Part shown: positions 37,092-40,891 of the stretch, piece after piece | Layout: each line of letters begins with the position of its first letter | Position numbering within the stretch: position 1 is the first letter of the stretch | DNA from: Pontibacter liquoris | Lineage (GTDB): Bacteria > Bacteroidota > Bacteroidia > Cytophagales > Hymenobacteraceae | DNA length: 64,000 nucleotides | Direction of reading: 5' to 3' | NCBI RefSeq assembly: GCF_022758235.1 | Contig: NZ_JALEBG010000001.1 | Coordinates: 2,108,001-2,172,000 of the forward strand | Translations under genes and position numbers: made by a program | The notes under the pieces: model-generated | What the model was told of the DNA's origin: nothing | Seen by the model: the letters and a program-made list of their open reading frames with translations, nothing else | The model's database searches: none

Positions 37092-37865
37092 CTATTGTTT
37101 TGTTGCCTTATCCGGGTACCAGGTCAGCAGGCGCACTGCTATATTTTTGTTCTTGCTTTCTACTGCTTTCTTAAACGCTTCTACATCGCTAAACCCATTC
37201 TGTCCGCGGTAATGATACGGGTACACCACTTTTGGTTTAAAAGCCAGCACACCACTGGCTGCCTGGTTTATGTCCATGGTATAAGGCAGATTCATGGGCA
37301 CAAAAGCGACATCAATATGCTGGAGGGCACGCATTTCCGGGATGTCTTCTGTATCGCCGGCTATATAGACGCGCTTATCTCCCAGCTGCAGAATGTAGCC
37401 ATTTCCCCGGCCTTTCGGGTGCTTTGCATCGGCTGTTTCCGGTAAATTATACATGGCAACCGCTTGGATCGGAATGTTCAACTGCGTGGAATTCTGACCA
37501 TTTTTCATGACCACCACCTGCGCTTTATACTTGCTGGGCAGTTTGTCGGCTACTGCCTGTGGCACCACCAGCACAGCACTGTCCAGTTTAATTGAATCGA
37601 GTGTAGCCACATCCAGGTGGTCGCCGTGGATGTCGGTGATCAGCACCAGGTCCGGCGCTTTTGTCCCCGCATAGGCTTTGGCACCACCGGTCGGATCTAC
37701 GTAGATCGTTTTATTATCCCAGGTCAGCACCATGGAAGCATGCTGAATGGGCTGGATGACAAGCGGCCCTTTGCTGGTTTCAATCTTATCGTAAGTGGCA
37801 ATCTGCGCCTGTGCCTGCCACAAGGCTAAACTCAAAAAGAGGGTAAACAGAGCTTTTAATTTCAT
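37092..37865 (-). CDS. Secreted MBL-fold metallo-hydrolase (UPF0173-like)
   Basis: Metallo-beta-lactamase-fold protein of 257 aa with a signal peptide (MKLKALFTLFLSLALWQAQAQ), so periplasmic. The fold is seen in IQPIQHASMVLTWDNKTIYVDP, the metal loop, KRVYIAGDTEDIPEM (second metal region) and VVYPYHYRGQN. The metal motif reads T-DIHGDHLD (residues 77-84): the first His of HxHxDH is Asp78. The remaining ligands (His80, Asp82, His83, His of YHYR) are present, so one metal site may be altered. UPF0173 proteins are poorly characterised hydrolases. Possible phosphodiesterase or lactonase activity is not shown by sequence. Confidence 0.88.
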   Translation of the reverse strand: MKLKALFTLFLSLALWQAQAQIATYDKIETSKGPLVIQPIQHASMVLTWDNKTIYVDPTGGAKAYAGTKAPDLVLITDIHGDHLDVATLDSIKLDSAVLVVPQAVADKLPSKYKAQVVVMKNGQNSTQLNIPIQAVAMYNLPETADAKHPKGRGNGYILQLGDKRVYIAGDTEDIPEMRALQHIDVAFVPMNLPYTMDINQAASGVLAFKPKVVYPYHYRGQNGFSDVEAFKKAVESKNKNIAVRLLTWYPDKATKQ

Positions 37866-38284
37866 AGGTTTATAGGTTAGAGTGATGTTTTAAAAGGAAT
37901 TTCAGGTCAGCAGTCAACAAATAGCAGCAGCATTGATCCGGATTAAGGGAATTTACAGCTTACGCCGCTCACTTTCATCCTCTACTTTTCGGCCGCGTGC
38001 AAACCAATCGATCTGCAATAACTATACTATAAAACAAGGGAGTAGTTGCTGCTGTAAGGCAACCATAACGGCAACAGAATGTTTAGCTGGGTGGCGATAA
38101 CTATCTATACAAGTATAGCTTACGCGGCTGCTAAAGTATAGAAAGCCCGTGGATTTAGCGATTAAGCTTAGCATAATGAGAATCGGAAGAATACATCAGC
38201 CCTGCCGGGATCAAATTTAACGGCTATACTTGCAGGAACCTCTAGCTGCTTTTTTGGTATATTGCTTAAAAGAAGGGTAAAAAC
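37866..38284. other. Gene-free region between MBL hydrolase and DAC-like protein
   Basis: 419 bp with no convincing coding frame, tRNA or terminator. It holds three AAGTATA-type motifs (38111, 38134, 38225), one inside the near-palindrome CTATACAAGTATAG (38105-38118), and a small inverted repeat GTTGC/GCAAC near 38047-38064. It must contain promoters for both divergent genes, but I see no exact TAnnTTTG. Confidence 0.5.
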
Positions 38285-39433
38285 ATGAGCCTGATCCGTG
38301 AAACAACTTACCTGGCAGCCCAGGCCGTAGCCGACACGATAGAAGAGCATTTTTTGCAGCACCTGCAATCCGCCCGCGAGCAGGGCGGCGAGGCGCTGGC
38401 CTCTAAGCCTTCTGCCCGGATCATAGCGGCCATAATCGATACGGCTTTTTGGGCAAGTCTGCGCCGCGAAGAAGGATACGCTACCCGCATTTCATTGGCC
38501 TACATGCCGCCGGAGCAAACAGACCTGCCGCTGTTGTTCGAGCGGCGGCTCCCCTTCTCTTCCACTTTTCTAACCAAAATATCGCCGGCCGTGGAGCGAC
38601 CGGGCATTCACCTGGGGGTGTGGCACGAAGGCGATGAGCTGTATATCTGGGGCGCCACGCAACACGTTCCAGGCCTGTGCTTTGTGCTGGATGTCTCGGA
38701 ACCCGGCTTGCTGGTCGTGAAGCATCGCCGGGTAGGCGGCGTAGGCAAGTTTGCCAATGTGGCCATTCTGAAAGGCGATCAGGTGAAAATTGTGGATGAG
38801 CAAAGCGGCAGCCTCCCCGATTGCCCGACGCTAGTGTCTACGCTGCTTCGCTTCTCGGCCCCTGCCCCCGTTGATGATGCGGTGAATGTGCTCGTGCAGC
38901 TGGCCGTCTCCATGCGCGCGCACAAACGCGGCGGCCTGCTCCTGGTGGTGCCACCGCAGTCCATGGCCTGGCATGAATCCATCATCCATCCTATCCTGTA
39001 TGCCGTAACCCCGGCTTTTTCCGTGCTGGCCGATCTCATGCGCCAGGATATAAGCGAGCAGCGCCAAAGCATCTGGCAGGGTGCTTTGCATACCGCTGTG
39101 GAAACGTTGGCCGGGCTGACGGCCGTAGATGGCGCCACGGTAATAGACGAGAACTATGAGCTGCTGGCCTTCGGGGCAAAGATCGGGCGCAAGAAGGGCG
39201 CAAGCCCCGTGGAGCAAATCCTTTTTACTGAGCCCATCAAAGGCAATGAAGTCAGTATACTTTCTCCGGCGCAAAGCGGCGGCACCCGGCACCTGGCAGC
39301 AGCGCAATTCGTACACGACCAGCAGGATGCCCTGGCCTTTGTCGCCTCCCAGGACGGCAATTTCACCATCTTTGCCTGGTCGCCCTGCGATGGGATGGTG
39401 CATGCCCACCGCGTCGACACCCTTTTACTTTGA
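38285..39433 (+). CDS. DACNV-DAC-like protein: putative sensor fused to a diadenylate-cyclase-type domain
   Basis: Predicted soluble two-domain protein of 382 aa. The C-terminal ~180 residues match the order of the DisA_N (DAC) cyclase fold: a strand RGGLLLVVPP (215-224), a helix ETLAGLTAVDG, the DGA signature at 282-284 (DGATVIDENYELLAFGAKI), and GGTRHLAAAQF (332-342), equivalent to the GTRHR motif of DisA/CdaA that binds ATP and metal. The final Arg of GTRHR is Leu337 here. Residues ~1-200 would be the sensor domain (DACNV type, known from comparative genomics); it holds an amphipathic N-terminal helix and WASLRREEGYATRISLAYMPP. Established: DAC domains make c-di-AMP. Inference: this makes or senses a dinucleotide; the altered RHR could change product or kill catalysis. 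It is a single-gene unit between convergent and divergent neighbours. Confidence 0.72.
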   Translation: MSLIRETTYLAAQAVADTIEEHFLQHLQSAREQGGEALASKPSARIIAAIIDTAFWASLRREEGYATRISLAYMPPEQTDLPLLFERRLPFSSTFLTKISPAVERPGIHLGVWHEGDELYIWGATQHVPGLCFVLDVSEPGLLVVKHRRVGGVGKFANVAILKGDQVKIVDEQSGSLPDCPTLVSTLLRFSAPAPVDDAVNVLVQLAVSMRAHKRGGLLLVVPPQSMAWHESIIHPILYAVTPAFSVLADLMRQDISEQRQSIWQGALHTAVETLAGLTAVDGATVIDENYELLAFGAKIGRKKGASPVEQILFTEPIKGNEVSILSPAQSGGTRHLAAAQFVHDQQDALAFVASQDGNFTIFAWSPCDGMVHAHRVDTLLL

Positions 39434-39463: not shown

Positions 39464-40891
39464 TCAATTCAAGCCTACGATACCTTGTACCGATTCAAAG
39501 ATCTTGGGCGCATCAAACCCGACGCCATTTTTAAAGACAATCTCGGTTTGTCTGATCTGTTTAATATCTTTTGACAGGTCTCCGTTTATCAGCACCAGGT
39601 CTGCCTTTTTTCCTTTTTCGATGGTGCCGATCTCTTTTTCGCGGCCCAGGTAAATGGCTCCGTTAAGCGAGCAGATCTTGATGGCTTCGGCTGGCGTAAA
39701 GCCCCCTTCCACCAGCAACTCAACCTGCCGGTGATTGGCATATCCCGCAATGGTGCGACCCGCGCCTGTAGGGTCAGTGCCGGCTACCAGCAGGCCTCCG
39801 GCATCATAGAACTGTTTTTCCCAGGCCAGCTCTTTCTGAAACAACGCTGCGCTGGCTGAGTCTTTATGCTGGGCCGCCTGCCAGTTGGCAACGATCTTCT
39901 TTCTAACTTCCGGCACCAGCGCAGCTTCGCCCCCACCCAGCACGGCTTCGCGATTGGTATAAGGCTCAAACACAGGCAATGTAGAGGTTACCGCCACGCC
40001 TTTGCTGATCAGCAACTGCTGCAGTTCTTTCATTTCGGGGCTGTTTACGGCCAGGTTCTGCAGCGATTTACGGGCATTGGCCGGGCAATCATCTTCCTTT
40101 TTGTTTTCTGCAAAATCGGTGCTGGCCAGAAAGCCATGTTCCAGGTTATCAATTCCCAGATCGGCAGCTTCGCGGTAGGTGATGGCGCACAGATGGCCGG
40201 TTACTTTCATGTGCCGCTGATGCGCTTCCCGCACCACCGCAGCCAGGTCCGCTTTGGTGGCATGCATGTACATTTTAAAGGAGGTGCAGCCTTTATCGGC
40301 CCAGAAATTTACGCTCCGGGCAGCATCTTCCGGCCCCTGGATGGTGTTGAGCGCCGGAATATCTAGGGCTGCTTCTTCGATGTAGGGTGCTGTTACGTCC
40401 ATATCCGGCCCGATCAGTTTGCCTTCCTGTATCATGCGCTTGAGAGCCAGGTCCGTTTGGGGTTCGATACTTCCGGCAGTGCGGATGGTGGTGGCGCCGC
40501 CCGCCAGGTATAACTTCGGAAAGGTGCCCGGCATTTGGGCAATGTTGAAGTAATTGTCCAGCGGCTTGGTATAGTATAAATGTTCATGCAGCATCACCAG
40601 GCCCGGAATCAGGGTCTTACCCGTGCAATTGATCACCTCCGCCTCCTTTGGCAGCTTTATCTTTTTCGCATTGCCTACCTGCTCGATCCGGCCATTCCGA
40701 AGGATAACGGTTTGATGCTGGCGCGCCGGCGCACCGGAACCATCCAGCACCGTAGCATCGGTCAGCGCAATAACGTTGGCTTTAACCTTGATGAATTCGT
40801 TTACCTTCGGGGTAAAGTTTTGTGCCTTGCCTGCGCTTAGGCCACCACAGAAAGCAAGCGCCGCAAGCACGGCAGGAAGCGATTTGAACAT
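39464..40891 (-). CDS. Secreted amidohydrolase-family protein
   Basis: Metal-dependent hydrolase of the amidohydrolase superfamily, exported (signal MFKSLPAVLAALAFCGGLSAGKAQ; start ATG 40891). Seen: beta-sandwich N-terminus with KVNEFIKVKANVIALTDATVLDG, first metal motif MLHEHLYYT (HxH), MKVTGHLCAITYREAADLGIDNLEHGF with metal-ligand His, and GTDPTGAGRTIAGYANHRQVELLVEGGFTPAEAIKICSLNGA (Asp and family C-terminal motif). At 475 aa it fits the imidazolonepropionase-like/prolidase-like group. The substrate is unknown. The frame extends to 41002, but the extra N-terminal residues overlap another gene and are not needed. It may be in an operon with thyA and the small membrane protein. Confidence 0.9.
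   Translation of the reverse strand: MFKSLPAVLAALAFCGGLSAGKAQNFTPKVNEFIKVKANVIALTDATVLDGSGAPARQHQTVILRNGRIEQVGNAKKIKLPKEAEVINCTGKTLIPGLVMLHEHLYYTKPLDNYFNIAQMPGTFPKLYLAGGATTIRTAGSIEPQTDLALKRMIQEGKLIGPDMDVTAPYIEEAALDIPALNTIQGPEDAARSVNFWADKGCTSFKMYMHATKADLAAVVREAHQRHMKVTGHLCAITYREAADLGIDNLEHGFLASTDFAENKKEDDCPANARKSLQNLAVNSPEMKELQQLLISKGVAVTSTLPVFEPYTNREAVLGGGEAALVPEVRKKIVANWQAAQHKDSASAALFQKELAWEKQFYDAGGLLVAGTDPTGAGRTIAGYANHRQVELLVEGGFTPAEAIKICSLNGAIYLGREKEIGTIEKGKKADLVLINGDLSKDIKQIRQTEIVFKNGVGFDAPKIFESVQGIVGLN

Follow-up and report, generated by a model that had tools for sequence, protein, structure and literature searches.

The window analysed here, a 64,000-nucleotide stretch of the Pontibacter liquoris genome, codes for a protein of the DACNV-DAC kind, a known, little-studied family in which an N-terminal DACNV domain precedes a C-terminal domain with the fold of diadenylate cyclases (DACs) (Table 1). 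The protein is most readily understood as a soluble, sensor-gated second nucleotide cyclase that acts beside the canonical CdaA of the same genome and probably makes c-di-AMP, a reading to which we assign a probability of about 0.6.

Table 1. Features of the DACNV-DAC gene and its product, with positions in the window
Feature	Position	Strand	Evidence or remark
DACNV-DAC protein gene	38285..39433	+	ATG to TGA, 382 aa, soluble
Divergent intergenic region, 419 bp	37866..38284	.	Rfam: nothing above the gathering score; sigma-70 consensus: no match
DACNV probable sensor domain, aa 37-125	38393..38659	+	PF21751, E 1.6e-32, 112 bits (cut-off 27)
Beta-rich extension of sensor region, aa 126-170	38660..38794	+	strands in both models; outside the Pfam match
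Linker, about aa 171-198	38795..38878	+	low confidence, poorly conserved
DAC (DisA_N-like) domain, aa 199-382	38879..39430	+	Foldseek, hhalign; PF02457 only 17.4 bits
GALI-like strand RGGLLLVV, aa 215-222	38927..38950	+	GGLL placed by eye; G216, G217 invariant
DGA, aa 282-284	39128..39136	+	79/79 distinct class-A proteins
GGTRHL, aa 332-337, RHR-motif equivalent, third Arg = Leu	39278..39295	+	R335, H336 79/79
SQDG, aa 355-358, SEE-motif equivalent	39347..39358	+	S355, D357 79/79; Q356 77/79, G358 76/79; aligned with SEE/SEDG

The reading frame and its DGA and GGTRHL motifs lie where the original prediction had placed them, and the gene does stand alone, as had been proposed: 419 bp separate it from a divergent MBL-fold gene starting at 37865, and 30 bp from a convergent amidohydrolase ORF beginning at 39464 (both named by Pfam). 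A Pfam scan of eight proteins in the 33.9-44.8 kb part of the window named, as further neighbours, a prephenate dehydrogenase, an SDR, a Gfo/Idh/MocA protein, a thymidylate synthase and an MMPL transporter, and left one small protein without a match; judged by these names, the neighbours look metabolic or transport-related, and neither CBASS nor other defence genes are among them. At the limits used, the protein itself matched nothing in PADLOC, which was run on this protein alone, or in NCBIfam. A role in defence or on a mobile element was considered and dropped, since such Pfam neighbours and plasmid or phage matches are lacking and 46 of the 50 Pontibacter genomes have a match. A search against Rfam at E<=1 gave four matches in the upstream region, all of them far from the gathering score. 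No membrane anchor is evident either, as had been predicted, the highest 19-residue Kyte-Doolittle mean being only 1.5.

A feature of the window at large is the heptamer AAGTATA, which occurs 97 times (mean 4.6, maximum 13 in 100 shuffles), with 42 of the copies lying within about 9 kb devoid of long ORFs. The heptamer is common in other loci of this genome as well and in some Pontibacter loci (for example L016, 3.6 per kb; L104, 4.1 per kb), is absent from others such as L103 and L106, and has densities of 0-0.61 per kb where the locus comes from another genus. It could be a word of the iterated or uptake-like type.

The N-terminus had been thought to be a sensor of a novel type. Its sensor character is supported by the match to PF21751, and its novelty is not, the domain being the known Pfam DACNV. 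Beyond the Pfam match, 34 class-A rows agree on 12 of the 45 residues in the beta-rich extension and on only 1 of 28 in the linker, which has pLDDT below 50 at residues 173-199. A model of the sensor region (aa 1-172; 41 sequences) is confident (pLDDT 93.9, pTM 0.90), and no PDB chain matches it at E 0.001.

The DAC fold proposed for the C-terminus is upheld by both structure and profile comparisons. A full-length AlphaFold2 model built from 36 sequences (pLDDT 81.2, pTM 0.79) was compared with the PDB by Foldseek, and among the best 50 of 252 matches all 46 chains at E<=0.001 are diadenylate cyclases, namely CdaA/DacA from several species, CdaM and DisA, with a best E of 1.7e-5. TM-scores normalised to the target are 0.42-0.58 among the single-domain chains at E<=0.001 and 0.28 for DisA, modest values that an insertion and the second domain may explain; the Foldseek rmsd values are 5.8-11.6. 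At the sequence level, the PF02457 match covers only aa 330-359 and stays below the Pfam cut-off (17.4 vs 27 bits). Hhalign comparisons with CdaA were weak for the full alignment (probability 7.6%, E 0.0046) and for the RHR-bearing relatives L077 and L078 (7.4%), and the match became clear only once a C-terminal profile of 76 rows was used. This profile scored 33.5 against CdaA (probability 63%; none of 60 column shuffles as high, maximum 18.1) and 37.1 against a DAC of the DACNG/H type (probability 80%; none of 60, maximum 15.7).

These alignments place GTRHL on GLRHR of CdaA and GARYN of the DACNG/H-type DAC, and SQDG on SEET and SEDG, respectively. The direct alignment to CdaA covers GTRH and SQD; the DGA region of CdaA, however, falls out of register on GAK (aa 297-299; against GAV). 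The comparison with the DACNG/H-type DAC sets TAVDGA against TSIDGA, and the DGA of that DAC in turn falls on that of CdaA, so that D282 can be equated with the Asp of CdaA by using the DACNG/H-type DAC as a bridge. As the DGA match rests also on this bridge and on the fold, the register problem leaves the odds of the main reading as they were.

From the protein's own composition, DGA would be expected 0.15 times by chance, which makes it weak evidence on its own, and GGTRH 0.0002 times. Both DGA and GG[T/S]RH occur without exception in the first alignment of 46 full-length relatives, a count that omits one locus whose open frame breaks off (L049) and one fragment (L053), and in all 79 distinct class-A proteins. 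The latter set was drawn from 102 rows sharing 4-mers with the window protein, merged where the last 250 residues were identical, and by construction leaves out distant DACNV members, which were read apart. Invariant throughout the 79 are G216, G217, D282, G283, A284, E316, G333, R335, H336, S355 and D357, while position 334 is T in 75 and S in 4. Position 337 is L in 65, F in 6, M in 3, I in 2, V in 2 and Y in 1, and never R: the predicted RHR-like motif is thus real, and the full RHR is missing, a hydrophobic residue holding its third position in 79/79. The (V/I)SEE motif is also absent, ASQD standing in its place with the Ser kept and the metal ligand E124 changed to Asp. The loop before GGTRH, which carries E316, is longer in the alignments than in CdaA and DACNG/H-type DACs, and a counterpart of CdaA's adenine-stacking Tyr was not located in the window protein. 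Among 23 DACNV proteins with identities to the window protein down to 19%, 15 columns are invariant, 10 of them in DAC motifs (G216, G217, D282, G283, G333, R335, H336, S355, Q356 and D357).

The roles that these residues may play can be predicted by alignment with CdaA and the DACNG/H-type DACs. In a review, the side-chain ligands of ATP and metal in CdaA are given as L31, D71, T102, R103, H104, S122 and E124, and the main-chain ligands as L88, G101 and E123 (PMC7288161). Each polar ligand of that list has an aligned counterpart in the window protein, with E124 as Asp. The third Arg of RHR does not appear in the list as given there, and its loss alone is therefore no argument for a dead enzyme. 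In Leptospira CdaA, D172A and R203A abolish activity and S222A leaves 47.5% conversion (PMC12974146), R203 being, by its spacing, the probable first Arg of RHR, and RHR-to-AAA triple mutants of M. tuberculosis DacA (PMC3328451) and M. bovis CdaM (PMC13022847) are dead. Because all three residues were changed, the triple mutants cannot single out the third Arg, and no single mutant of it was found in the sections searched.

Relatives of the window protein are patchily distributed. Searches of the class and of Pontibacter gave matches in 10 of 295 and in 46 of 50 genomes, respectively, the protein's own genome included in both counts; in one genome of the genus (G716) the only copy found, G716:C1:1411103-1412250, is broken near the N-terminus, and P. 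pamirensis (G708) has a broken copy (L053) besides two intact ones. When 84,980 species genomes were scanned with a pattern, 38 loci emerged, one of them a fragment, in Pontibacter (the P. vulgaris match being L016, G730:C5:185788-186927), Rufibacter, Dyadobacter, Chitinophaga, Mucilaginibacter and two Acidobacteriota MAGs, among others. No match was found in plasmid and phage records at E 1e-5. For the DACNV family as a whole, the counts are 11 of 395 genomes in the phylum and 21 of 297 in the Acidobacteriota, the phylum of the Pyrinomonadaceae MAG G655.

Eight distant DACNV proteins share SQDG, of which L077, L078, L129, L134, L135 and the partial L133 carry RHR, L130 RHS and L132 RHQ; SQDG is thus not tied to loss of RHR. 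In a tree computed with the position-337 column left out (76 of 86 rows after thinning of near-copies, without the partial L133), the 69 rows with a hydrophobic residue at 337, 52 from Bacteroidota and 17 from Acidobacteriota, group together in a single supported clade (SH-aLRT 97), and the three states of this position can be accounted for by two changes. The branching order of the distant rows is unsure owing to long branches, a quick method and midpoint rooting. One row from a Pyrinomonadaceae MAG (L026) sits among Bacteroidota, which may reflect transfer or a MAG error. L077 (G231:C1:140256) and L078 (G080:C1:206423) are each a second DACNV protein in their genomes, 441 and 445 aa long by the first start, and with DGV, GTRHR and SQDG they offer an RHR-bearing paralogue for comparison.

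The separate CdaA that had been anticipated is present: the genome encodes one canonical DAC, CdaA-like, at 145.6 bits with HDGA, GLRHRAA and SEETG, whose CdaA_N match on a truncated reading reaches 18.6 bits against a cut-off of 23.8. Two DHH proteins are also encoded, and no PgpH-type 7TM domain was found in the genome. All but one of the 47 searched genomes with a window-type protein also have a DAC above the cut-off, the exception (G648) being a MAG; by genome content, this co-presence shows a predicted second DAC, not linkage. Across genera, no partner gene holds a fixed place in the 45 of 47 records that were usable (L046 and L086 were lost to ORF picking). Families recurring nearby at varied places, defined as single-linkage clusters and named by eye, include a kinase-led cluster at 13 loci and clusters led by an ABC-F-like ATPase, a receiver protein and a pseudouridine-synthase-like protein at 10 loci each. 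Nine Chitinophaga-group loci, as well as L033, have genes of kinases and regulators upstream; in L033 (2881-5531, Mucilaginibacter galii) they are, as named by eye, a phytochrome-like kinase and a response regulator on the same strand.

The mechanism that we infer, including ATP binding, catalysis, product, gating and signal, would run as follows. The DACNV region would bind a cytoplasmic cue or a partner and control how two C-terminal DAC domains pair face to face. Each of these would bind a nucleoside triphosphate, most likely ATP, via D282, T334, R335, H336 and S355, with a metal held at D357, and the paired domains would make a cyclic dinucleotide, most likely c-di-AMP.

Counted against this reading are the replacement of the third Arg in 79/79, the change of SEE to SQD and the sub-threshold PF02457 score, along with the modest TM-scores, the DGA register relative to CdaA and the adenine-stacking Tyr that was not located. 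The residue conservation itself would also fit a non-catalytic nucleotide-binding protein, and a pseudo-cyclase, also raised by the original prediction, is the strongest competitor, although we hold it to be rather unlikely. Its DAC domain would bind ATP or c-di-AMP without catalysis, as a receptor or as a partner tuning the housekeeping CdaA, which would suit the altered motifs, the low Pfam score and the over-cut-off DAC found in nearly all genomes with such a protein. Against it stand the polar ligands of the review's list, all kept (the Glu as Asp), and the full RHR found together with the same SQDG in distant DACNV proteins. Since these ligands are kept and the clade's change affects a residue absent from that list, a working cyclase is favoured over a pseudo-enzyme; of the original alternatives, the second, sensor-linked DAC is the preferred one and the pseudo-cyclase is weakened.

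A more doubtful proposal takes the DACNV sensor for a decayed DAC fold, so that a dead, nucleotide-sensing DAC would precede a live one with a rebuilt phosphate-binding motif (RH-hydrophobic, SQDG), giving a cyclase that senses its own nucleotide and whose product is possibly altered. The tandem-DAC part draws its only support from structure: when the sensor model was compared with the PDB, the top two of 111 matches were the two chains of one DAC entry, CdaM 8ofj (E 0.12 and 0.19, probability 0.57-0.60, TM 0.30-0.39, below any usual threshold), the third having E 1.7. Sequence gives none: the profile match of the sensor to its own DAC is equalled or exceeded by 42 of 100 column shuffles, and that to CdaA by 31 of 60; homology of DACNV with DACNH is also unsupported by profile (25 of 60 shuffles as high). 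Improbable, too, is an active enzyme with another product, cyclic or linear, for which one could cite the clade-specific changes at 337, Q356 and D357 and the longer loop before GGTRH with its invariant E316; the fold and, by the review's ligand list, the phosphate-binding residues are nevertheless those of c-di-AMP makers. Least likely is a chance resemblance to DACs, as might be read from the PF02457 score, from a single-sequence phmmer search of the PDB at E<=1 that found no DAC and one chance match (CdnG, E 0.75), and from the A1 profile (34 of the 46 aligned full-length relatives with L077 and L078), which matched no PDB chain, for the matches of the model to DAC enzymes speak strongly against it, and the profile alignments with their shuffle tests and the invariant columns of the 23 DACNV proteins also count against it.

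The window protein belongs among the DACNV-containing DACs (PF21751), which it resembles in its N-terminal DACNV, its C-terminal DAC-like domain and its solubility; the family reportedly stems from Galperin's 'All DACs in a row' (J Bacteriol, 2023). A search of a library of open-access papers found neither the word DACNV nor 'diadenylate cyclase' together with 'Pontibacter'. Of the two DAC types compared by profile, the DACNG-DACNH-DAC proteins (PF21752, PF21750) are closer than CdaA; they keep DGA and have SEDG in place of SEETG, but differ in their sensor domains and in GARYNSA or GSRYNSA where the window protein has GTRHLSA. One genome (G058) holds two such genes (L075, 921-2555; L076, 1477-2928) together with DACNV and CdaA, i.e. 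four DAC-type genes. CdaA/DacA shares the DAC fold, DGA and RH with the window protein and has an N-terminal membrane part as well as HDGA, RHR and SEETG, whereas the window protein has VDGA, RHL and SQDG, no membrane segment and neither a CdaA_N match nor N-terminal membrane helices. DisA likewise shares the fold (9y4s, E 3.9e-4); unlike in DisA, the DAC of the window protein is C-terminal, with no domain after it. DACs are also gaining weight in phage defence, as in system DS-2, where the predicted catalytic residues of a DAC encoded next to CBASS are reported to be required (PMC13092281); the window gene is not in such a setting.

Most work on c-di-AMP concerns CdaA, DisA, CdaS, CdaM and DacZ of archaea. 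If the preferred reading is true, the window protein would provide a second, separately regulated c-di-AMP input in organisms in which this nucleotide is little studied, through a soluble DAC with its own sensor that is patchy, yet common to Bacteroidota and Acidobacteriota. Within the known DACNV-DAC kind, what sets it apart is its predicted clade-specific active-site variant, which places it in the RH-hydrophobic clade as opposed to the RHR-keeping proteins L077, L078, L129, L133, L134 and L135. Such natural variation at the third RHR position would let one test directly which part of the textbook motif is required.
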